From Adineta ricciae (taxonomy: Eukaryota > Rotifera > Eurotatoria > Adinetida > Adinetidae), in NCBI GenBank assembly GCA_905250025.1, contig CAJNOJ010000033.1:124001-188000 (forward strand): a DNA stretch of 64,000 nucleotides, written 5' to 3'. A model generated the notes under the pieces. It did no database searches, was not told the DNA's origin, and saw only the letters and a list, made by a program, of their open reading frames with translations. Each line of letters begins with the position of its first letter. Position 1 is the stretch's first letter. The translations under genes were made by a program, and so were the position numbers. Positions 9,482 through 49,400 of this stretch are shown here, piece by piece.

Positions 9482-11060
9482 CTATTTCAAAGTGTTGAGT
9501 AGATTCCATATTTTTTGTCGCATAACACTTGTCGCACCGTTGTAGTTATTTATTATAATTGAAAAGACTTGGCTGTGAATATAACCAGAATAGGAAAGAA
9601 CGTTACTGATAAAACCGCTCTTCATTCGAATGCCATTTATGATTGGTAATGCACGTTCAAATGATGGAAACCATGGTGCTCGTTCGCGAATATTATGTAG
9701 AACCCGTACGATAGCCCATGTTGTTATCCGGTTTTGAGGTGACAAACCGGAACCATCTCTTGTCGCCACTGCTGTTTGTTCAATACCATGTTCACTCGTA
9801 CAGTATGTCGATAAGACACGATTTATACTCGAATTTAGCTTCTTGGCAACTGTTTTTATCAACACTTCACCATACATATTGATGCTTATTTGCTCAAACC
9901 AATAAACAATTTCACTCATCGGTGGCGATTCGTACATGTCCAATGTCATTCGAAGTTTGGGTAGATCTTCATCATTACGATAGACGACTTTGATTGGCAT
10001 CGATTTTGACCATTGCATTCTCTGACGAAGCTCATCGGCCACAAACAATGCTGAATTGGGTACTGCACCACCAATAGAGAAGTTTTGTGGTGAATCAATG
10101 CCTAAAGATCCGCGTAGATAACCATGAGTACAATCAGAACCTAAATAAACATCGGCAAGATCACCAGTGCCCGGTGAACCAGTCACCAATTCATTTGTAA
10201 ATGTTACTGACGGAGGTAAATTTTCAAAACCAACAAGTGTAACAGGATCGCCCACAGAAGCGCCAGGAGACAGAATTATACGAAATTGATTTTCGCGCCA
10301 GTTCAATGCACTACTACCCGTTGCATAGTAATTGCTAATAGAAATCAAATCAAACTAACAATAGGTTATGATTTCAATCAATATTGGGTTTTACCCTAGA
10401 CCTCCCCACGGATATCCATCTGGTACTGTTTGTGTTTGATCTGGCCATGCACTCAGATCTACAACAACACCTCGACATTCTTTGATCCCTCGACTTCTAA
10501 TCGCTTTCAACCAGCGTTCCATTATCACTTCGCCTTTCGTCTCATTCCAACGCCAACTTCCTAAACTTGGATCACCACTTCCTATACACACACACACACA
10601 TACATACATGCTTAGAAAAAGCACCGTTTCCAATAACGGATGGCCGCATACTAACCGACAATATAGATATAACCATTGAGAATGCCAAACGAATTGATAT
10701 TGCCAGAATATTGTAATATAGTTTTGTAGCGATAATCTGTGCCTAGATAATGTAGGGCAACAGCACCTGTTACCGTTTTCATCGTTGAAGCAGGTGAAAG
10801 TCCCAAATCTCTATTGAACGAGAAGGTGATATTTCCAGTCGCATTGTCAAAAATTGTAATTGAATAAGCTGCATGTAACAACTGAGGGTCTTTTGTGAAA
10901 TTGTCCCAGGCTGCAGTGAATTTTGCATTTTCAATCGCATTCGTTTGAGATTTAATAATCGATAAAGTAATTAGAACAGTAAGACATTGTCTCTGATAAA
11001 AAGTTTTGTGATAGATTTATGGCTGCCTGAATTTTAACTTACTTTCAACCTCGATCCCAT
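9482..11060 (-). CDS. Secreted D-Ala-D-Ala carboxypeptidase, PBP4/DacB-like (S13), copy 1
   Basis: S13 DD-peptidases cleave the D-Ala-D-Ala ends and cross-links of bacterial peptidoglycan, which animals lack. Four exons, 11060-11043, 10992-10656, 10581-10395 and 10334-9482, give an in-frame 464-aa protein. A hydrophobic N-terminus (about residues 9-20) looks like a secretion signal. All three catalytic motifs are present: SxxK as STMK (Ser about 75), SxN as SIN (about 331) followed by MYGE, and KSG (about 419) in place of KTG. The DGSGLS motif of the family is also intact. Family distribution points to bacterial origin; the spliceosomal introns and tandem paralogue show it is domesticated rather than contaminant. 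The substrate in the animal is inferred: food bacteria or pathogens. Confidence 0.9.
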
Positions 11061-11363
11061 CGCCGAATGTAACGAAAGAAATAAGTGAATAAAAATATTG
11101 TGCATCTCTGTAGTCTCTTATCAAGATTCTTTATTTGCCTAAGTAAAAGCCATATATACAGAAGTGTCGTATTTGTCAATATTTTGAAATCAGCAGGACT
11201 CATTACGACTATTCTCGAAATGACTAAAGAATTCGGTTCGTATCGATAGATCGGGTAGAATAAGCAAAACTTTCCGCTCTGCTTCTTAGTCTACTATTCA
11301 GAATGAGTTGGAATCCATAAAATATGTATACATAAAAGTTTTATTTATAAGAACAATTGTCAG
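11061..11363. other. Spacer between the two DD-peptidase genes
   Basis: About 300 bases holding the 3' UTR of copy 2 and the promoter/5' UTR of copy 1. No coding seen. Confidence 0.5.
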
Positions 11364-12934
11364 TTAGTTAAGTGTATCTAACAAGTCAAATAATTTTTGG
11401 CGCATGCTATTTCTTTGTCCATTGAAATTGTTGGTAATAATAGAGAAGACTTGGTTGTTAAGATAGCCAGCGTATGATAGAGCATTATGAATGTATCCGC
11501 TTTTCATTCGAATATTATTGATGATTGGTAGTGCTTGCTCGAAGGATGCAAACCACGGTGCACGTTTTCTCACATTATACAAAACACGTGCAATTGCTCG
11601 TGTTGTTATACGATTTTCTGGTGATAACCCTGAACCATCTATAGTTGCTACTTCAGCTTGTTCGATCCCATGTTCACCATTACAATATGTCGATAATATA
11701 GTGTCACTGCTGGCATTTATTGCATAAGCGATTGTTTTTATCAGCGCTTCACCATACATGTTGATACTTACTCGTTCAAACCAATATACGATTTCACTCA
11801 TTGGCGGTGAAACGTGTATGTCGAGTGTTATTCGATTTTTTGGTAAATCTTCGTCTCTACGATAGATAATTTTGATCGGAATTGATTTTGACCACTGCAT
11901 GCCTTGACCAAGTTCATCGGCTATGTAGAATGCTGAGTTTGGTATTGCACCACCAATAGAGAAATTTTTGGCTGTATCGATACTGAGTGTACCGCGCAAA
12001 TAACCGTGCATGCCATCAGGTGCCAAAAATAGATTTGTACGATCTCCAGTGCCTACAGCACCAGTTGTAATCTCATTAATTAATGTTACGGATGGTGGTG
12101 GATGGTCGACATAAACAAGAGTAACAGGATCGCCGACAGAAGAACCAGGTGAAAGAAATAGTCGAAATTGGTTCTCACGCCAGTTCAGTGCGCTGTGACC
12201 CGTTCCATAATGATTTCTATGCACATTTAACACTCTGGAATGTACACACAATACAAGTTACGTTGAATACAACTCACCCCAGATCTCCCCACGGGTATCC
12301 ACTAGGTATAGTCTGTGTTTGATCTGGCCATGCACTCAGATCTACAACAACACCTCGACATTCTTTGATCCCTCGACTTCTAATCGCTTTCAACCAGCGT
12401 TCCATTATCACTTCGCCTTTCGTCTCATTCCAGCGCCAACTTCCTAAACTTGGATCACCACTTCCTATATACATACACACATACATACATGCTTAGAAAA
12501 AGCACCATTTCCAGTAAAGGACGGCCGCATACTAACCGACAATATAGATATAACCATTGAGAATGCCAAACGAATTGATATTGCCAGAATATTGTAATAT
12601 AGTTTTGTAGCGATAATCTGTCCCTAGATAATGTAGAGCAGCAGCACCGGTCACAGTCTTCAGCGTCGATGCAGGTGCGAGACCGAGGTTTTCATTATGA
12701 GAGAATATAATGTTGCCAGTAGAATTATCAAGAATAGTGAGTGAAAATGTGGCGTACGATAGTTGAGGGTCTTGCATGAAACGACTCCATGCTGTAGAGA
12801 AGTTCGTATTGATAGCAGCATACGTATGACATTGAATCGACAGAAAACTGAAGAGAATTAAAACAATCCTCTGCAGTTAGAGAAAATCCTCGTCTATGTA
12901 TAGTTCAATACAGAAAATATTAATTTCTTACCAT
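11364..12934 (-). CDS. Secreted D-Ala-D-Ala carboxypeptidase, PBP4/DacB-like (S13), copy 2
   Basis: Tandem paralogue of the downstream gene with the same exon plan: 12934-12932, 12870-12537, 12464-12278 and 12216-11364, 458 aa. The first coding exon is just the ATG, followed at once by gtaag; the next exon, after ctgcag, supplies a hydrophobic signal peptide. Motifs are intact: STLK (Ser about 69), SIN followed by MYGE, KSG and DGSGLS. Most of the last exon has clearly diverged from copy 1. The block around exon 3, intron 2 and the end of exon 2 is nearly identical, which suggests gene conversion. The intact active site in both copies implies selection for catalysis. Confidence 0.9.
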
Positions 12935-13449: not shown

Positions 13450-14041
13450 CTAACAAGGGAAGGTCACCAACTTTAAAATCGATTTTAAGACAGAATTTAG
13501 TGCTCTGAAAGTAATCGACCATGATGAATCCGAATATCGTGGTCGTTACGGCTAATACTACTCTGAAGACCGGGTTTTAGAAAGCCAGGTTCTCAGAAAA
13601 TCTGTGTATTTTTTAATGTTCTTTTTTTTTAGCTCAGTTTGTAGAGCACATCGAATTATCTGCAGAAAAATGATTGTTTCTATTTCGGATTGGTTTTTTT
13701 ATAAGACATATAGCCATACAAATCCATATGGGTGATGTACATCTTAGCATTTTTATATAAAGACACAACAGGTTATTTAGTTTTCCTGGAGTGTGCTCTT
13801 GTAAGCAAGCAGTGCTTGCTGATTCATGGACAATTCGATGTACTCTGCAAACTGAGCTAATAAAAAAAAGATCATTAAAAAATACCTAGATTTTCTGAAT
13901 ACCTGGCTTTCCAAAACCCGGTCCCCAGAGTAGGATTAGCAGTAACAACCACGATATTCGAATTTAGCATGTTCGATTACCTCCAGAGCACTAAATTCTG
14001 ACTCGAAAGCGATTTAAAAGTTGGTGACCTTTCCTCGTAAG
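13450..14041. mobile_element. Non-autonomous DNA element with long terminal inverted repeats
   Basis: About 592 bp. The left arm (13450-13657) matches the reverse complement of the right arm (13832-14041) almost throughout, from the outer GGTCACCAAC motif to the inner AATTCGATG/CATCGAATT motif. The arms differ by scattered substitutions, so the copy is not brand new. The central 174 bp has no transposase coding and includes a small palindrome (GCAAGCAGTGCTTGC). The outer edge reads CTAACAAGGGAAGG on one side and CTTACGAGGAAAGG on the other. No clean target-site duplication is visible; the flanks TAGAGTATA and AGAGATAAA are only loosely similar. Long arms with little interior are typical of MULE-like or foldback MITEs; the family is not determined. 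Confidence 0.85.
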
Positions 14042-14450: not shown

Positions 14451-16253
14451 TTAGGACTTTGGGTTAGTTTTGATGCTGATTTTACTTTTAGTATCATACA
14501 GAGAATCCGGAGCATTTTGAGCATATGTGTATGATTGAAGGCCTGGTCGATGTTGTCTTTGAGCATAAATAACTTCGCGAAAGAAACGAAATACGTTGGA
14601 ATCTGTATGACCAACTGTGAAGGCGGAATGTTCAATTAAAAATCGCATACTAACTAGAAATTGTTCGAAACCAATACGCTGAAATGGATCAAAGCATGCC
14701 TGCGGTGCAAGAACATTGTAAAGAATATCTCTTCCACGTAAATGTTCTCGCGCATACGATTCATCCGTACCCTTCGAATTCGGATTTGCATAATCTTGAA
14801 GTGCCTGCATGACAGATGTATCGTCGGTCATAACAAAAATATATTGAAATTTTATCTTTCGCTGCTTTTCTTCGTCGACTATTCCTTTGACATATAACGA
14901 AAGATTACGCCAATGCTGATGCTTCGCCCAGAAAGAATCTTCATTGGATTTATCTCCCCGGCGAATATATAAACCAGCAAGTCGGTCGAATATATTTGTA
15001 CCAGCTGGAACCGAATGTTTATCTTGGAGATAGCCTAACCAATGCTGGGTTAATACTCGCATGCCATATTCAATGCGCGGTGCGTTTTGTGAGCCAAAAA
15101 ATAAAACAAACATGTAACGAAGAAATGACCCGAAAACGTGATCTTGCCAAGTTAAGTTATAATTTTTATTTGAAACTAAAAGATCAGAAGAGAAGGCATC
15201 AGGTTTATTTGTGTTGATCCATTCGCCAAGTGGAACATTTTTTGCATTGTTCGGTGCGTAAATATGCTCATTAGAATGATCGATAAGAACTTTCAGAGGT
15301 GAGTCATAAGTAACTGATGTCTTCTTGCGATCGAACAACCATTTTCGTATGGGTACATGATGGTAATCCATTTTCCAAAATTCGCTCGACCTTAGAGGGC
15401 GGTTCTCTTTATTATTTCTATACTCAAATAGTTTACTGGTGACTGCAATTTCAATCTTATTCGAATCGGATTCAATAAGGGTTTTCATAGTCTTCAATTC
15501 CGGATCTTGTTCGAAAGCTGTGCAAATCGAAGATGGAAGAAAATAACGTTTTACACCTTCGCCTAAGAAATCATCTTTTTCGCCACGATCGCCACTAAAA
15601 CGAGTTCCGCTAAGTACAGCAATACGCGGACTGTACAATGTTTGACCAAATTGTGCAATGAAACAGAGAACTCTACTGAAGAATCCCGACCAATGTTGAT
15701 GTAGAATAAAGATCGATTGCGCGCGGCATATCTTTAGAATTTCTTGTTTACTCACCAATCCACTTTGAATTTCATCCAGATGTGGAAACTGTTTTTCCGA
15801 AAGGTATTTGAGCATTTCGATCTCAGCAATTTTATTCCATCGAACATCACCTTGTTCATCAAGCCACAGGATAGGAGTAAGTGATTGACGAAATTCGCTT
15901 TCATTATATGTTATCATTTCACTTGTATATTCACGTTGCGATGGTTGTTTACTCAGCTCTGTCGGGAACAGTCTATAGCAAACGAATTATTTGCAAAAAA
16001 CCTATCTCGTTTCAGTCACTTACCTAACTGGTAGACTTTGTATTTGAACTAATTCATTATACATGGGTGTATCTTTAAAAACCAATGCTGAAGTTTGTAC
16101 GCGTTCATTTTGTTGGAGTGGTAAAGTCGGGTTTGAATTGTCAGCATGTTTTTCAAATTTACTTGCCGACTGATATCGCATGATTAGATACAATATGACT
16201 ATTGTACTACATACGATTAAGAACATTCGAGTAGCAGAAAAACGAACCAACAT
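14451..16253 (-). CDS. GT23-family fucosyltransferase-like type II Golgi enzyme
   Basis: Resembles alpha-1,6-fucosyltransferases (FUT8 family), which add core fucose to N-glycans in the Golgi from GDP-fucose. Exons 16253-16024 and 15972-14451 join in phase to give 583 aa. The N-terminus is a type II signal anchor (about residues 10-27). Catalytic-domain motifs are LYIRRGDK (the HxRRxDK-like donor-site motif, two Arg conserved), FVMTDDTSVM (matching the family's ATDDPS) and a C-terminal block around GFEQFLVSMRFL and HTDSNVFRFFRE. The first His of the human HVRR motif is Tyr here. Sequence ends soon after the catalytic domain, so the SH3 domain of vertebrate FUT8 is absent. Donor specificity is inferred. 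Confidence 0.8.
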
Positions 16254-25769: not shown

Positions 25770-26175
25770 CGTTGCACTTTGTACTTTTATGTTTTTTTTC
25801 TAATGATTGGAGATCAGTGATCGTCCAGTGTTGAGGTGTATACAGCTCATTGACGATCGATGAAATGCAATACGTACACTCGTATGTAAATAGAGGGACG
25901 AAAATAAATCGAACTGATAGTTTTCATGAAATTTCCTTTCATACTTTCCTCACGGACGCATAAGGCGACAAATAAGAAAACATGAGATGTTAACTGTAAC
26001 ATGCATGAATACCTTTCAAGTATTACTGATCACGTTTTAAAATGTCATATTGTGTTGCCTATCAAGTATTATATGGTAAAATACTTTCTCGATGGGTTAA
26101 TAAATGTCAACGTTATTAGATAAAAATACGGAAAATATTGCTGCTCGAGGGCGATATAGATTTATCGACTTGTTG

Positions 26176-26183
26176 TATATAAA
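26176..26183 (+). promoter_or_regulatory. TATA box of secreted precursor copy A
   Basis: TATATAAA lies 58 bases before the ATG at 26241. It is preserved at the same spacing in copy B. Confidence 0.6.
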
Positions 26184-26240
26184 TGCAAGACAGATAATGG
26201 TTTTTCATTTATTGAACTTGATTGCATATCAGCGTCCAGC

Positions 26241-26630
26241 ATGCAGTTTGTTTACGGCTCAATCGCTCTCTTATGCGTCTGTGTCCTGACCTTCAACAGC
26301 GTTGATGCTCGCTCGATGGGAGCGTACGCTGATAATGATGAGAGCAGTGAAATGGAGAGACATGATCTATACGAAGCTCTGACTGATGCTCTTCTTGCTA
26401 GAAGCTCAAGACATTTCCTGAAGGGTGGAGCTCGCAAACGCCAAGGAGGTAGTGGTTCCGGCAGTGGCTCCGGCAGTGGTTCTGGCTATCTTAGTGGTCT
26501 TCTTGGTGGTTCTGGCAGTGGCTTCAGTAAACGTCGTCATTTTAATCCAGTTGCCAATTATAAACGCCAAAAACAATATTACCATAAACGAAATTACGAC
26601 GGAGGATATAACGGTGATCTCGAAGATTAG
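26241..26630 (+). CDS. Secreted Ser-Gly-rich precursor with dibasic sites, copy A
   Basis: Intronless, 129 aa. An N-terminal signal peptide (about residues 1-23, ending near SVDA) is followed by an acidic helical region (DNDESSEMER..), then ARKR, a short Gly-Ser tract (GSGSGSGSGSG), and a C-terminal part with SKRR, YKR and HKR spaced like prohormone-convertase sites. The tail is acidic (NYDGGYNGDLED). It could be a peptide precursor, or a small proteoglycan core because SG dipeptides near acidic residues are glycosaminoglycan attachment sites. No known family recognised. Its own TATA box and poly(A) signal suggest it is expressed. Confidence 0.75.
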   Translation: MQFVYGSIALLCVCVLTFNSVDARSMGAYADNDESSEMERHDLYEALTDALLARSSRHFLKGGARKRQGGSGSGSGSGSGSGYLSGLLGGSGSGFSKRRHFNPVANYKRQKQYYHKRNYDGGYNGDLED

Positions 26631-28816: not shown

Positions 28817-29231
28817 ATTGTACCTTGCACTTTTATGGTTTTTTAACGGTAGCAAATCAACAATCATCCAGTGTTGAGGTGTATACAGCTCATTGACGAT
28901 CAATGAAATATAATATATACAATTTATGCATATAGAAGAAAAGTAAACAAGAACGAAAATAAATCGAACTAGTAATATTCATATAGTTTCCTTCTCAACC
29001 TTCGTTATCGATGGATGAGTTGACGAATAAGAAAAAGTGAAATATTAGACAGAGCATGCATGAATAACTTTCATATATTATTGATCACGTATTAAAATGT
29101 CATATTGTGTTGCCTATCAAGTATTATATGGTAAAATACTTGTTTCGATTGGTTAATAACCTTCAACGTTATTAGATAAAAATACCGAAAATATTGATGC
29201 GCGGGGGCGATATAGATATGTCGACTTGTTG

Positions 29232-29239
29232 TATATAAA
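29232..29239 (+). promoter_or_regulatory. TATA box of secreted precursor copy B
   Basis: TATATAAA 58 bases before the ATG at 29297, same spacing as in copy A. Confidence 0.6.
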
Positions 29240-29296
29240 TGCAAGACAGATAATGGTTTTTCATTTATTGAACTTGATTGCATATCAGCGTCCAGC

Positions 29297-29842
29297 ATGC
29301 AGTTTGTTTACGGCTCAATCGCTCTCTTATGCGTCTGTGTCCTGACCTTCAACAGCGTTGATGCTCGCTCGATGGGAGCGTACGTTGATAATGATGAGAG
29401 CAGTGAAATGGAGAGACGTGACCTATACGAAGCTCTGACTGATGCTCTTCTTGCTAGAAGCTCAAGACATTTCCTGAAGAGTGGAGCTCGCAAGCGCCAA
29501 GGAGGTAGTGGTTCCGGCAGCGGTTCTGGCGATCTTGGCAGCGGTTCTGGCAATCTTGGCAGCGGTTCTGGCAATCTTGGCAGCGGTTCTGGCAATCTTG
29601 GCAGCGGTTCCGGCGATCTTGGCAGCGGTTTCGGCGATCTTGGCAGCGGTTTCGGCGATCTTGGCAGTCTTTTTGGTGGTTATAGCAGTGGATGGGAGAT
29701 GCTGGCTAGTCTTCTTGGTGGTTCTGGCAGTGGCTTCAGTAAACGTCGTCATTTTAATCCAGTTGCCAATTATAAACGCCAAAAACAATATTATCATAAA
29801 CGAAATTACGACGGAGGATATAACGGTGATCTCGAAGATTAG
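29297..29842 (+). CDS. Secreted Ser-Gly-repeat precursor with dibasic sites, copy B
   Basis: Intronless, 181 aa. Signal peptide, acidic region and C-terminus are nearly identical to copy A. The centre is expanded by seven 7-residue units (GSGSGDL, GSGSGNL, GSGFGDL variants), followed by LFGGYSSGWEML, which copy A lacks. Dibasic sites ARKR, SKRR, YKR and HKR are kept. The acidic Asp in many SGD units fits glycosaminoglycan attachment. The alternative is a structural or processed peptide. The strict conservation of the ends contrasts with the free change in the middle. Confidence 0.78.
   Translation: MQFVYGSIALLCVCVLTFNSVDARSMGAYVDNDESSEMERRDLYEALTDALLARSSRHFLKSGARKRQGGSGSGSGSGDLGSGSGNLGSGSGNLGSGSGNLGSGSGDLGSGFGDLGSGFGDLGSLFGGYSSGWEMLASLLGGSGSGFSKRRHFNPVANYKRQKQYYHKRNYDGGYNGDLED
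29516..29662 (+). repeat. Coding minisatellite, 7 x 21 bp
   Basis: Seven tandem 21-base units, each encoding G-S-G-(S/F)-G-(D/N)-L. The unit is a multiple of three, so copy-number change keeps the frame. Confidence 0.9.
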
Positions 29843-30347: not shown

Positions 30348-33300
30348 TTACCAAGCAATGTGTTCTAACCAACAGCCAGGATTTCGTCGAATGTACAATT
30401 TTCTTAATTCGTCAATAATAAACATGAATGTGCCAAAGCCAAGTGCAGGCAAAACATAAAGTATTGGTACTCGTTCAGTTTTAAATTGATGTTGCATAAA
30501 TGGCACTTGTGTAATCAAAATACAAGTTAATGTTGATGCAATAATTCCAACAATTAACCATAGATTTCGACTATGACGAGACCAAAACGGATTGTGCGTA
30601 AAAAACGATGCATAACGTGTACGTGTTGTCAATAAGTTAAAACATTGCATAATGCATAAAGCCACATAATAAATACATTGGCCTGTTTGATTGATTGTCG
30701 TTAACTGTTTTTGCTTTTCTGGCGAGAATTGTTCTTCAAAGTGATTGAATTTAAAAAATATCATTGACAATGGAATACCATTTGCTTGATACCACCAAAA
30801 GAAGCAAAAAAAGGAAGTGAAACATTCGATATTACCAATGATTATATAAGCATGAAAGAGTAGTTTTAAGTTTAATATATGTGATTTATTTCGAATCGCT
30901 GGTGGACGACGCATAATATCTTTCTCTGCTTTTTCCGATACCATTGCCAATGACATAAACACATCTAGAAGAAGAGAAAAATAGAAATCCATCGATTCGA
31001 CTTATACAGTACCGTTCATCATGCAAAATATAGTTGCTTGAAAAGCCGATAATGCTAACGGAATACCGAGCCATGTGTTAAAGAAAACAGGCCAAATCTC
31101 CGACCAAGAACCTACAATACAATACAATACAACAAGAACAGTAAATCAAATATGCTTGCTCTAATGTCTTGTATAAGCTAAAGATTGCTTACCTCCTGGT
31201 AGTAAATAAATGGCCACTTTCTTCAAATTGTCGCTCAATAATCGACCTGTCTCGATGGCTTTGATGATTGATGAAAAGTTATTGTCCATCAAGACCATAT
31301 CACCTGCTTCTTTTGCAATATCTGAACCAGATTGCATAGCAACACCAAGATCAGCACGTTTCAATGCTGGTGCATCATTAGTTCCATCACCTGTGACAGC
31401 AACAATTTCTCCACGTCTCTGACATTCCATAACGATGCGCAACTTATGCTCAGGTGATGTTCGTGCGAATATCAATTCTTGGTGCGACAATACCCATGTC
31501 CACATATATTCATCCACTATGTAATGAAAGATGGGTATAAAATTTTAGATAGAGAAAAGAAACTAATGTTGGCTATGAACATACTGTAAGCAATATCACT
31601 TCCTTTGACGACCATCGCATACGGAATGAGAACTTGTTTTACATCTCGTTCTGTTGTTGATTTCGGATCCGAAAAGTAGAAATTGATATATTCCCATGCA
31701 CGTTTTATCCACGACGCAGGTGTTCGATTTTCTTCGTCATTAGTCAAACGTATTTTTGTTGACTTTTTCTTGCTTTCTTCCAACCGATTTACTGTTCCTA
31801 ATATATGTGTTTCCAGTAAGTTTCCATTTCGAAGTAACTGCACAATTGGTCGACCACTTGGCATATCAATGCCCACTAATTGAACTGTATCAACACCATT
31901 CGTCTGATAGATTTCTGAAGTTAAAATATTCACTTGTTTGCCGATTGCAATTGATGTTGTTGGATGATCACCTGTCACCATTGCGATACGAATCTTAGCT
32001 TGTCGAGCTTTGAGAACTGCATCTGGTACTTCCTCTCTTGGTGGATCAAGCAAACAGAAAAGACCAATGAATGTATAACCATCTTTTGGTAGGCCATTGT
32101 ATGGATCATCCGATGGCGCATTCGTTAACATTTGATCCAAGACATTCTTGTCAACTTGTTGTTGAAGCATGGCGATTATCCGATAACCATCTCTACCCAT
32201 TTCTTCCTGACGTTGAATGATTTGTTGACGAATATCATCTGTTAACGATTTGATATCACCTGTACTTGTTTTATATGTTAAGCACTTGTCAGGTGTTAAG
32301 ACAACATCAGTTGCACCTTTTAATGTGATTAAAATGTCGTTCGATTTGTTATTCAATATCGACTGATGTTTAGATGGTGACATCTGATTAGCAACAATCA
32401 TAAATTTATTCGAGGAATTAAATGGTAAACAATGAACTCGACGGTAACGTTGTCGAATATGCTCAACATCAACGCTAAATTTTGTTTCGCATACATTATA
32501 GAGCGCGATGTCAGCCGCATCGCCACTCAATGTTAAATGTTGAGCATTTTCTTGCAGACGTTTTTCAGCATTATTACATAGGCATGCACCTAGAACTAAA
32601 TCCCTGTGTGGCGTTGCTTTTGTACGAATTTCATCAATTTCTAATCGTCTCGTTTGCATAGAATCAGTTACATTGATGCTGTCAGCTGGTGTACCTGATC
32701 GAGAGCCTGACGCATTTGATAAATGTCGAACAAGTGTACCAAATACAGATCTCCATTCTCGTTTATCTGTTGTTACGACGGTCGTTATTGGAACTTGATA
32801 TTCACCGTCAGTATCCCAAAGTAAATGTGTACAACTCATTTTATTTTGTGTCAATGTTCCAGTTTTATCTGTACAGATCATCGAAACAGAATTGAATGTT
32901 TCAATTGTTTGGAGACTTTTGACGAGAACTTGTTGAGCTGACATGTATCTCTGCGAGAAAATTAAAAACCTCGAGTTTTTCTTCGCACGTCAAAGTTCAT
33001 ACTACTTACGGCGACAATAACAAGAACCAATGTAACTGCTGATGGCAATCCAACAGGTAGAAATCCAACGATCATTCCAACTGAATTGATAACATTCGAA
33101 TTAAATGAGATATAGTTTGGATAAACTGGATTCAACCAGACAATCCACGATATCCATATGACAATGATTGATATAACAGTACAGCAGAGAACAAATAAGA
33201 TAAATCGATTTACCTCCCGATGTAAACCAGTGATTTCATCCGTATTTGACGAGCGTGTTAATTTACTGACACGGCCTACAAATTGAAACATGAAATAAGA

Positions 33301-34088
33301 AGAAGTACGGTAATCATTGTTGGAATCCTACCTAACACAGTTTGATCGCCTGTAGCAACGACAATGCCTTCACCTCGACCTTCAACAACTAGTGCAGAGT
33401 AGAATACCATATTCGATGTTTCTAAAAGATGCTCATTCGTTGTTTCAAGGGTACATTTAACAGGTTTCGATTCGCCAGTTAACTCTGCATTATTAACTTT
33501 AAGACTATTACACGATATGATCCGACAATCAGCAGGAACTTTATCACCAGTTTGCAACAAAATGATATCACCTGGAACTAAGCCTTCCGTAGGAATGTGT
33601 TGTTCACATCCGTTATTACGACGAACCGTGGTCAATTTTGGTAAAATCTGAGCAAATGAACGAATTATTTTAATTGACTTCATCTTTTGATAAACATTCA
33701 AAACAGCATTGGCAATAATAACAATGCCGAGAACAACACCCAAGCCTAAATTTGTTGTATCTGGATCTGGCCAGCCAAATGGTTCATAAGCGAGAAAAGC
33801 GAAGATCGCAGCAATCCATAACAATGCGTTAAAACCAGTAAATGCTTGAATGAAAAACAATCGTATATATCCCGGCTGTGGAACAGGAGCCGGCTGATTT
33901 AAACCGTATTTTGCTTGCGCTTCATGAACTTGAAGCGTTGTTAAACCAGAACGTACATTATGAAGATTCAGTTGTGAACATAATTCGTCTAACGGCATTT
34001 TGTGCGGCTGACTTAAAGATAAATCACTCACGACTGGTCGTTGTTTTTGCATGTTACTCAGTTGTATCGATATGGTATTCGATGCCAT
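30348..34088 (-). CDS. P-type cation ATPase, divergent Na+/K+-ATPase-like (P2C)
   Basis: Pumps cations across a membrane using ATP. Six exons (34088-33332, 33275-33010, 32950-31585, 31516-31193, 31111-31013, 30964-30348) total 3429 bases and 1142 aa, all in phase. Domains in order: N-terminal cation-ATPase region, actuator with TGES, M3-M4, phosphorylation motif [10 protein letters not shown] (Asp about 369), nucleotide-binding KGA, hinge [11 protein letters not shown], then M5-M10. Overall similarity is to alpha subunits of Na+/K+-ATPase. However, M4 reads LPVGLP where that family has PEGL, so the cation-binding Glu327 position is Val. M6 reads MMND, with one Asp. The Glu of M5 (EIWP) is kept. 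Ion specificity therefore cannot be assumed. Confidence 0.88.
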
Positions 34089-34280
34089 GACTGGAAAACA
34101 AAACTAAAGCAATGGACAGATTTCGTCTTGATAAATACCTGTTTCTGTTGACTTACTGCAAAATTATTAGAAGTGACCAAAAGAATGTCAATTGTCACCC
34201 GGTCAACTGGCGTGTGTATAAACTGACTTCGGTATATAAATATGCACATATATATATATATGCAGGCAGAGACTTTTTCT

Positions 34281-44995: not shown

Positions 44996-45349
44996 TTATC
45001 CACGAGCAACACAATGACGACCTCGTTTTGCATTACCATCATAGCACATTAAGCCAGGACAGCATGGTGGTAAATTAGGACCACAAGTCCATATGTGTGG
45101 GAGACACATTTGTTGAAATTGTCCCGGTTGTTGTTGTTGTTGCATCGGAAAGAATGGAAACATTTGTTGTTGACGAATAATGTATTCATCATCCAAATTT
45201 CCGTGTTTCATTGTGTCTTGATGCGCTGACCGTTGTTTCGCGTACATGCTCAAAAACCGTTCATAATCATTTGTTGGTGGATTTGGATACGCAAACATCA
45301 GTGGTAAGAATAGAAGAAAAATGTATTGAACTAACTTCATTTGTTGCAT
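44996..45349 (-). CDS. Small secreted six-cysteine (knottin-like) peptide precursor
   Basis: 117 aa from ATG 45349. Signal peptide (LVQYIFLLFLPLMFA, about residues 6-20), an acidic/Gln-rich propeptide with QQQQQP, then a C-terminal module with cysteines in the order C-x7-C-x6-CC-x4-C-x10-C. That C-C-CC-C-C pattern is the inhibitor-cystine-knot framework. No convincing dibasic cleavage site directly precedes it. Knottins include channel-active peptides, protease inhibitors and antimicrobial peptides; the pattern alone does not say which. Spacing counted by eye. Confidence 0.65.
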   Translation of the reverse strand: MQQMKLVQYIFLLFLPLMFAYPNPPTNDYERFLSMYAKQRSAHQDTMKHGNLDDEYIIRQQQMFPFFPMQQQQQPGQFQQMCLPHIWTCGPNLPPCCPGLMCYDGNAKRGRHCVARG

Positions 45350-46484
45350 TTGAATTTCTTCGATACTAAAAATAATAGTTTATATACGCGTGTAGTTTCG
45401 TTACTGGCAAGTGCCAATATAGTAGTATAATGATCCGTATACGCGTATGTGCGTAGTTTATATCTATTTATCAGCGATCGAAGATAGAGATAGAAAAAAA
45501 AGAGATTACATATAATTCCGCTTGTCATATAGTAAGAAGATCTGACTGTAGACATGTTAAAAAAAAGAGAAAGTGTTATTGTACCATGAGTGCGAAAGAT
45601 AAAGTATTGTAGTACATAATCACGATGAAAATCGATGACGTCTTTCAAGTCAAACACAGAATTATGATTAGTATCGAACATAACTCGAACGCTACAATCA
45701 TAATTAAATATATGAAGTTATCTAAATATCCGCGTAACTGACAGCAGAGCTGACGTGCGTTGATGTCAAAGACAAGTCAAATATTTGTATGACGCCAAAA
45801 ATACTATTGGATTTAAACGGACATCAGTTTATAAATGAATACCATTTTTAAACACTCTAAGCGTGACTTGTTGAAGTTCAATAATGATCATGAAAACGCA
45901 TTGTGACTATCTCTGAGTACGGGACGCGAAAGGAAAAGAGGTTTTCTCTTACACAATTTCGACTATTCATAATGTACTTATTGTATATTCTCCAAACAAT
46001 TAATACTTTCCGTATGGCCTTTGATCAACTACGTTGAGAGAAAAAAATTTGCTCCTTCCGTTGTGCATATCGTAGTGACTTATCTTATTAGGGTCGCATT
46101 ACATTAGAGTAGAGTAGTATACGTTCGGAACAAATGAATGAAAAATAGAACGATGTCTATTGACATTTCTGGAAGGAAATGTCAATGAGACAATAGAAAA
46201 ACGTTGTTTGGCATTGAGATCTGAATCGTTGTTATTACCGAATATTCGCCATGTGATAACGAGAAGTCATTTCTATTCCATTGTTTATTGTTTTATTACA
46301 AGAAAAAAAGTCGCATATATAGAATGTCTTCTTATCTTTTTTTTTACTCATTAAAATTTCATACGAATGGTAAAAAAATGTATGTAAAAACGCAACTGTT
46401 AAGTTCATGAAAAAATAAATAATACGCAAGAGATATTAAACATGACTAAACATTAGTTCGGATAGCAAAAAGTAGAAAATAAGT
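45350..46484. other. Intergenic region
   Basis: On minus, an ATG at 45681 opens FDTNHNSVFDLKD, which loosely resembles an EF-hand loop, but no partner exon was found. Otherwise nothing. Confidence 0.4.
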
Positions 46485-49400
46485 TCAAGAACCACCCGCA
46501 GTTGTCGATGTACCCGCGATAGTGGATGTACCTGTAGTTGCTGACAAAATACTCGATGCATTTTCTTGTGTAATACCAAGTATATTTTCTATATCGTTGA
46601 TTGCCAACTGAAAACAAGAATAACGAGCTCACTTAAAGAAAAGTCTGACAAGAAGTGCTTACCATGAAGTTACTTCTGCCTTGCATATTCGTTGTTGTTA
46701 TTTCTTGGTTAATGGAATTTAGATTATAAGCAAAATTCGATAGTGTATTTTGAAGGGAATCACCGATTGCCACCATGCCGAGATTTTCATGCCGTTCACT
46801 TTCTAACAGCGCAAAAATACTACCCTGCCTTTCGCGAATGTCGAAACCAACACCATGCGCACGACACATTTGAAAAAAAACGCTCAATTGAAGAACAGGC
46901 AGGTTAGAATGGTACAATCTCGATGTCCATACAGCAAAGCGATTCTTTTCGACAATCTATTGTGAAAAACAATGAAAAATTACATCTATTGATAGTAAAT
47001 AAAGATGTTTTACATGTTGTTCAGGTGCGTCCGTTTGCCAATTTCTCATGCGTTGTTTCACTTGTTTCACTTTGACGGTAAACGAATGTGTTTGAGAATC
47101 AAAATGACCAGTTGTAATAAAACGCGTCATTCGGTACAGTGCTAAATGTTCTGAATAACCAATCGATAAATCAACAGCCCAGACATGCTGCTTATCAGTT
47201 TTCGAATCGATAAATGTGACGAAATCAACATCAACGTAGCCGAAGATTTGCTTTTGTTTGCATTGTTCAGCAATCTGATGACAATATTGATTCAAATCCG
47301 TAGGTTCGACGCTCGATTGAGGGAATGACAAACCCCAACAAGAAAACTGAGATTCAGCATGTAGATGATCACCAGAATAAATAATTGAATGATGACCATT
47401 TGGTTCAATTGATAAACCAACAGTTATCGATGTCACAGAGTCCGATGGTGGATACGCTTCGATGATTCCACCTTGAGCGAAGAAGACTTTCGAATACGTT
47501 TGCCAACCGTTATATAAACTCTTATTGATACAGACAGTATGTTTTTCAAGTGCAGCAGGTAATTCAGAAAGAACTTTGACGTAAGATTGTTCCTAAAAGA
47601 CGAGCATAACTAATACATTTATCAGTCTTCTCGCATCTTACGTGCGCCCATCGCATTGACCATTTATCACCGAATCGCGCTGCTTCTTTTAGAGTGCTTT
47701 TATAGCAGGGAAGATGCTTGACAACATCACAATAGGCAATACCCAATCCATCGAAATCGTCATCGATTTTGAATACCCACCGTTGAATGTCCAAATGTTC
47801 GATGATTAATTGTGACAAAGCTTCGAAGAAATGGTTCTCTTTGTATATGTCAAATTCACCAAATGGCATAGGAACTTGGCTTGCCTCAAAGATTCGTTTG
47901 GAACCTGATTTTGTAGAAAATAAATCTGAAAATTCTGGCTCACAACCTAAACAATGAGGTAAACATGATCAATCAAGACAGAACAAGTTCGAACAAACCA
48001 AATATTGGAATATTTAGAAATTCAGCTATATAAAGATCATCGCAATGTGAAACACCAGTCACCATATATGCTTCACGACCTTTGATTAAATTTCTAATCC
48101 TAATATATAAAGACGATCATGTAAAAAAGTTTTTTTATTGAAATCAAGTCATTTACCTTTTCAGCGCCTTTGGACTGTATTTAAGTAATGTCGCCAAACA
48201 CATATTATGGGTCTGAAATAGTAGAAATTAGAAAAAGAAGATTTCGAATATGCTATTAGCTAATCGTGTACATACGGGAAAACTATGTAATGCTTCAGGC
48301 ACAACAATCATATATCGATCACAAATGTAGTCAGCTGCTGTCGGAGGTACTATTTGTTCGCTATCCTGTTGGATAGTGCTTCGTAAATTGATCTAATCGA
48401 AGAAAAACAATCAAGTGATCTTTCTTTTTTTATCGAGTTCTCTTACCAATTTATTATAATATTGTAGAAACTCTTCATTGATAGGCATAGGTGAGACGTA
48501 AATAACATCAACATTGGGATCATCTAATTCGCATAAGCGTCCTATTTGATGATTTTCTCGTATGGGTAATGTATTTAGTCTTCGTCGAGCACGTTGCGAT
48601 ATGCCTAACGAAGGTATATGAACAATCACACGACGATTACTAGAGATTGCTGCCCAACGTTGCCGTAGATCATTTTGTTTTGCTTTAAAGAACTCAATTT
48701 GACGTTGACGACTGAGCTTCAACTGGTACCGTGCTTTTGCTAGTTTGACAGTCATTAACCAAGAAAGAGCAATAACGCCCGCTGCCCATTTACGTTTTCG
48801 CAAACGAATGTAAGCTCGACGGTCACGAAAACGACGCCAATACGCTTGAATGGCGATCGCTGCACGTTCTTTTCCGCCACTACCGACGAATCGACGTCCC
48901 TAAAGAAGCGTTTATATTGAAACAAGATTTCAAAACAGTGAAAATCAACGTGAACTCACTATTCGTTTTACTAATTCTTCAACTTCTTCTCGATTGAGAA
49001 CAGCGCTGAGAAGTTCATCAAGTGTAGGTTTATGTTCCAGCTCAACGGTTTGCGCTAATTCGACAACTCTAATCAAAACTAGATTGACTGTCGAATATGG
49101 AGATTAATATCTTTTACCTTTCTCCGCTGATAAACGCAACTGGTATAGCATAGTCGTACATGAGTTTTTCTAACATTCGAAATACAGTCACAATGTTCCC
49201 CCACGTTAAACAATGAAGTTGTCGAAATCGTAAGAATTCATCAGTTTGATCTTTTGTCAAGCCATTCTGTATAGTCAAATGAACGGTTTTTTTATATTCA
49301 ACATTCGATGCCGGCGTTGATACTGGACGAGCAGCTATACCACTGTTTGTTGCTGATGTTGTCAAAGTACCTTTTTGCATTCGATTACCCGAGGATTTTC

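Follow-up and report, generated by a model that had tools for sequence, protein, structure and literature searches.

The window analysed here, a stretch of 64,000 nucleotides from an Adineta ricciae contig, carries at positions 9482–12934 two genes that encode proteins of the Peptidase_S13 family (PBP4/DacB DD-peptidases), enzymes with which bacteria trim their walls. The two genes are arranged head to tail on the minus strand and are referred to in the following as gene A and gene B. Judged from the sequence, the genes derive from a genuine and old transfer from bacteria, are integrated in the animal genome and are intact, and a function can be proposed for them by analogy with the bacterial enzymes. 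We think it likely that an S13 gene from Bacteroidota acquired introns and tandem copies, retained or restored its secretion signal, came under selection and underwent gene conversion, and that the secreted enzyme acts on foreign peptidoglycan. The locus would thus be a clear example of an enzyme of bacterial walls that has long been settled in an animal genome, the marks of settlement being the gained introns, the duplication, the presence on two collinear contigs, purifying selection and gene conversion.

The limits of the interval were confirmed and correspond exactly to the stop codon of gene A (9482) and the start codon of gene B (12934). Both genes contain three introns (Table 1), in agreement with the preliminary description, which had proposed a tandem, intron-bearing pair with a common intron layout. 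All six introns are GT..AG, with lengths of 50–74 nt, and their phases are 0, 1 and 2 in gene A and gene B alike; the splicing of both genes is a prediction from reading frame and homology. When the two genes were compared, exons 2, 3 and 4 were 74%, 95% and 72% identical, respectively. Introns 1 and 3 hardly aligned (49% and 48%), and intron 2 was 89% identical. A tblastn search of the window up to E 10 found no S13 copies or fragments beyond the two genes, the remaining hits being at chance level (E 1 or worse), and a search of the window with Rfam at gathering scores returned no matches.

Table 1. Positions of the S13 genes, their exons and the gene-conversion tract in the window.
Feature	Position	Strand	Remarks
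Gene B	12934–11364	-	458 aa, 4 exons, 3 introns
Gene B exon 1	12932–12934	-	start codon only; ATG, then GTAAGA; same layout in the copy on C17
Gene B exon 2	12537–12870	-	hydrophobic N-terminus and SxxK motif (STLK)
Gene B exon 3	12278–12464	-	177/187 bases match gene A exon 3
Gene B exon 4	11364–12216	-	SIN, DGSGLS and KSG motifs, stop codon
Gene A	11060–9482	-	464 aa, 4 exons, 3 introns
Gene A exon 1	11043–11060	-	6 codons
Gene A exon 2	10656–10992	-	hydrophobic N-terminus and SxxK motif (STMK)
Gene A exon 3	10395–10581	-	from the intron/exon model of gene A
Gene A exon 4	9482–10334	-	SIN, DGSGLS and KSG motifs, stop codon
Gene-conversion tract	gene B 12314–12662; gene A about 10431–10781 (from exon coordinates)	-	353 alignment columns

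Both proteins belong to Pfam family PF02113 (Peptidase_S13), with E-values of 5.7e-44 and 9.4e-47 and scores of 151 and 160.2 bits, against a gathering score of 22.8. The matches comprised residues 34–412 and 31–406 of the proteins and positions 4–369 and 7–369 of the 444 in the profile, leaving the C-terminal part of the profile unmatched. Gene A, which alone was run against narrower models, passed the PBP4 equivalog model TIGR00666 (115.6 bits, cut-off 107.8) and fell far under the cut-off of the E. coli-type DacB model NF008322 (74.9 versus 527 bits). E. coli PBP4/DacB itself (PDB 2ex2) is a member of the same family and matched the two proteins at E 1.2e-11 and 8.2e-8. The best solved relative was B. 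subtilis PBP4a/DacC (PDB 1w5d; E 6.3e-27 for gene B and 2.2e-25 for gene A), with which the SxxK, SxN and DGSG regions align.

We take SxxK, SxN and K[ST]G to be the catalytic motifs of this family. In an alignment of 47 bacterial homologues, neither the named residues of SxxK (S, K) and SxN (S, N) nor any position of DGSGLS varied. In the KSG motif the lysine was invariant, the middle residue was serine in 40 homologues and aspartate in 7, and the glycine was present in 46, with one gap. The two animal proteins retain all of these conserved residues at the same places, so the earlier statement that the SxxK, SxN, KSG and DGSGLS motifs are intact in both holds. They also share the stretch NWRENQF, which is exact in 45 of the 47 homologues. 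Because the Pfam match ends just short of KSG, this motif is assigned from the bacterial alignment; it is also supported by the alignment to 1w5d, which is weak at this point (2.0 bits) and where the B. subtilis protein has KTG whereas the animal proteins have KSG.

The signal peptides that had been proposed were supported by a hydrophobicity scan (not a trained predictor), in which each protein showed a short signal-peptide-like hydrophobic stretch at the N-terminus and none comparable downstream. In gene B, the start of this stretch is, by the predicted splicing, supplied by exon 1. The two proteins contain six and five N-glycosylation sequons, which together with the hydrophobic N-termini fit secretion without proving it.

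The bacterial relatives of the genes were collected in two ways. A scan of an 84,980-species collection, which selects rows by short exact peptides and is therefore biased towards close relatives, matched 52 stretches, 49 of them relatives. The record titles of 48 of these named Bacteroidota taxa, and the 49th, bacterium A37T11, paired with Sphingobacterium in the tree; the best relative was 42% identical over the full length. A second search, of BLAST type and free of short-peptide selection, covered 395 genomes of the phylum and found a match in 247 of them, with identities up to 46%. The best 30 places were taken up, and 29 of these loci were added to the wider tree described below, L093 being left out as a repeat of the L001 gene. 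Matches were also found in 43 plasmid records, among which, in the matches listed, none came from a Bacteroidota organism. Their identities were at most 35.8%, and at most 28.3% where at least 80% of the query was covered; plasmid-borne Bacillus homologues were 25% identical. A viral carrier was also looked for, and the viral_contigs scan matched five stretches, none of them a relative.

A careful tree of 56 rows included 47 of the 49 loci and seven plasmid-borne outgroups from the 43 plasmid records; L006 and L049 were left out because the longest-frame pick had no blastp match at 1e-20. The proteins of gene A and gene B paired at 100/100 and, together with Chitinophaga, Solitalea and Sphingobacteriaceae, made up a clade of eight rows (100/95). 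Very long branches were flagged in this tree, among others those of the rows Alpha, Epsilon, E. coli, Natrialba and L042. These five are absent from a wider quick tree of 82 rows, which again placed the animal genes within the Chitinophaga/Solitalea/Sphingobacteriaceae group. Here the SH-aLRT support was 90 for the 20-row clade holding the animal genes and 85 for their nearest set, neither of which reaches the starred level. The preliminary description had called for a phylogeny against bacterial homologues and had named old animal descent as the contrary outcome. Both trees, in which the animal S13 rows come from this genome only, nest the pair in Bacteroidota, and old animal descent was not seen. 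The trees thus support descent from a member of the Bacteroidota that belonged, or was close, to the Chitinophaga/Sphingobacteriaceae group. With a long animal branch, of 1.0 to 1.3 changes per column, and support in the wider tree below the starred level, they place the donor no more finely than this. In neither tree does a bacterial row come as close to A or B as the two are to each other, which suggests one transfer followed by tandem duplication in the animal, as far as these rows show.

The nearest bacterial proteins, such as the DacB/PBP4-type S13 proteins of Chitinophaga sedimenti (L001), Solitalea longa (L002) and genome G124 (L096), show full-length homology to the animal proteins at 41–46% identity and share the catalytic motifs and NWRENQF (L096 lying outside that alignment). 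The animal genes differ from them in having introns, a tandem duplication, an animal genome context and a long separate branch.

The contig that holds the window is 607 kb long, in an assembly of 130 Mb. The window has 29 open frames of at least 130 aa; 20 of them were searched against Pfam, and nine of the 20 gave matches: IQCH (two frames), YIF1, F-BAR, IQ motif, P-type cation ATPase (two frames), MAPEG and PAP2. IQCH, YIF1 and F-BAR are eukaryotic families; P-type cation ATPase, MAPEG and PAP2 occur in bacteria too. The Pfam-matched frame nearest to the gene pair is an ATPase at 31520–34103, about 19 kb from gene B, and the nearest long frame upstream, a 511-aa frame at 14454–15986, has no Pfam match. 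Two further frames without a Pfam match, at 26160–26627 and 29216–29839, have near-identical starts with a secreted-looking N-terminus (first 70 residues); the latter contains a 21-bp tandem repeat of 7.2 copies.

The same gene pair was found on a second contig, referred to as C17 (787 kb). A comparison covering 30 kb showed C17 to be collinear with the window's contig over about 29 kb, chiefly in one block of 18.3 kb (91.6% identity) and another of 11.0 kb (93.3%), and showed two further short collinear blocks at 82% and 88%. A family search of the whole genome gave eight exon matches, corresponding to four genes, namely the window pair and the C17 pair, and all four copies are open and intact with the same intron layout. 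We read C17 as the other haplotype of the window's contig, although it may be a segmental duplicate. About 500 bp upstream of gene B, at 13450–14041, lies a foldback element of about 590 bp with 180 nt arms that are 86% complementary; it is absent from the collinear stretch of C17 and so looks like an insertion on one contig. A search for a telomere-type repeat of bdelloids gave 38 exact matches on 10 contigs; the reversed control, with 44 matches, is a rotation of the same repeat and so offers no contrast.

The introns, the eukaryotic neighbours and the occurrence of the same pair on two contigs indicate that the S13 genes are integrated in the animal genome with a eukaryotic gene structure, as had been supposed. 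An assembly chimera, which had been named as the outcome that would overturn this, was looked into along with bacterial contamination, and the idea is contradicted by C17. Nothing was found in its support, and it would have to account for introns in both genes, for eukaryotic neighbours on a 607 kb contig and for the collinear blocks with four intact copies. In addition, the 130 Mb assembly gave no match for the transpeptidase (PF00905) or Mur ligase (PF01225) families, in searches read exon by exon, by which a heavily split gene could be missed. We therefore rejected this explanation as extremely improbable.

Outside a tract described below, the comparison of gene A with gene B gave dS 1.55, dN 0.23 and dN/dS 0.147. 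These values suggest that the duplication is old and the proteins constrained. Between contigs, dN/dS was 0.168 for gene A and 0.087 for gene B. By these ratios, both copies appear to have been kept by purifying selection, and the low values support the reading of both as working proteins.

The tract covers intron 2 together with the last part of exon 2 and the greater part of exon 3. Inside it, all 17 informative sites unite the A and B copies of one contig and none unites alleles, versus 3 and 294, respectively, outside it (Fisher p about 2e-25, a guide only, as the limits of the tract were taken from the same data). Since A and B share exact runs of 99 and 119 bases here, compared with about 72% identity in the flanking exons, there is little doubt, on the alignment, that the paralogues have become alike over about 350 bp, independently on the two contigs, which is the footprint of gene conversion. 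A second homogenised stretch of about 190 columns (window about 11963–11774) was seen on C17 only, where A and B are identical at 186/190 positions, versus 150/190 in the window. If the two contigs are bdelloid haplotypes, the locus illustrates cleanly how, in an asexual lineage, long-duplicated tandem genes can convert each other inside each haplotype.

What the enzymes act on was approached through the other wall-enzyme families of the genome. Besides the transpeptidases and Mur ligases, no match was found, in the same exon-by-exon searches, for PF00768 (S11), PF02016 (S66) or PF00877 (NlpC/P60). There is thus no sign in the genome of a wall of the animal's own as the target, and the substrate is probably foreign. 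Nor is there any sign of a wider bacterial-type wall-degrading set in the S11, S66 and NlpC/P60 searches. On contig C271, at 45304–47919, a D-Ala-D-Ala ligase (Ddl; PF07478, 154.8 bits) and an alanine racemase (Alr; PF01168) lie head to head (L077, L087). Both genes are divided over two frames, with an intron as the probable cause. The Alr frames match TIGR00492, but their highest score, 285.7 bits, is to NF008897, the MurF-Alr fusion model, whose cut-off for the complete fusion is 804. A MurF-racemase fusion is typical of Bacteroidota.

Under the reading that we favour, a DacB/PBP4-type gene would have moved from Bacteroidota (Chitinophaga/Sphingobacteriaceae or near) into an ancestor of the animal. 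There it would have picked up spliceosomal introns and a tandem duplicate, its secretion signal being either retained or restored; purifying selection would have preserved both copies, and gene conversion made them partly alike. The proteins would be exported to the gut or some other space open to the outside, and the serine of SxxK would there attack the D-Ala-D-Ala ends and D-Ala-mDAP cross-links of the peptidoglycan of bacteria eaten by, or attacking, the animal. Cleavage would help to loosen the bacterial wall and release D-alanine. DD-peptidases alone do not usually lyse bacteria. That the animal secretes the enzyme onto bacteria as food or enemies is probably the simplest reading, and a role against bacterial walls, as first suggested, seems a reasonable one. 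It predicts a beta-lactam-sensitive secreted enzyme in an animal.

The ligase and racemase on C271, together with the match of the latter to TIGR00492 and the fusion model, raise the question of whether the acquired S13 genes instead serve the animal's own D-alanine/D-Ala-D-Ala metabolism rather than acting on bacterial walls. We regard this as unlikely: stem peptides are the substrate of S13 proteins, which are secreted, whereas bacterial Ddl and Alr are cytosolic, the S13 genes lie on contigs other than C271, and the genome has no transpeptidase or Mur ligase match. It is rather improbable, too, that the fold has been co-opted, for instance as a D-aminopeptidase, an esterase, a beta-lactam-binding protein or a peptidoglycan sensor. 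The serine beta-lactamase/PBP fold is often repurposed, none of the 47 aligned bacterial homologues has the methionine that gene A carries as third residue of SxxK, and the residue after KSG is F or Y, where 34 of the 47 have T; against this, SxxK, SxN, DGSGLS, KSG and NWRENQF are all conserved as in the bacterial homologues. Returning to foreign peptidoglycan as the substrate, one extension is that separate transfers have given the animal, which has no wall of its own, a D-alanine toolkit in which the racemase makes D-Ala, the ligase makes D-Ala-D-Ala and the secreted DD-peptidases take D-Ala off bacterial walls. We consider this quite doubtful. The separate transfers may all have come from Bacteroidota, the tree basis being for the DD-peptidases only, and the parts may cooperate, either in recycling D-Ala from eaten bacteria or in making decoys for agents directed at D-Ala-D-Ala.

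A transferred alanine racemase in Adineta vaga is credited to Flot et al. 2013 in the main text of PMC5169069. Foreign bdelloid transcripts for the breakdown of bacterial peptidoglycan were reported by Eyres et al. 2015, whose main text suggests an aid to digestion (PMC4632278). Foreign peptidoglycan-degrading enzymes in bdelloids are thus already on record, and the S13 pair would add another. The word carboxypeptidase is absent from the main texts of PMC4632278, PMC12220480 and PMC5169069, but the S13 family may still be among the transcripts of the first. No S13 DD-peptidase from a rotifer was reported in the titles and abstract openings among the literature matches listed. Bacterial wall enzymes have also moved into another eukaryote, Trichomonas, whose laterally acquired peptidoglycan hydrolases are, by the title of the report, used on bacteria (PMC6299479); these are NlpC/P60 proteins, a different family from S13 and one without a match in this genome. 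In Adineta vaga, peptidoglycan and chitin catabolic processes are named in PMC12220480 among those of genes under-expressed in flight.
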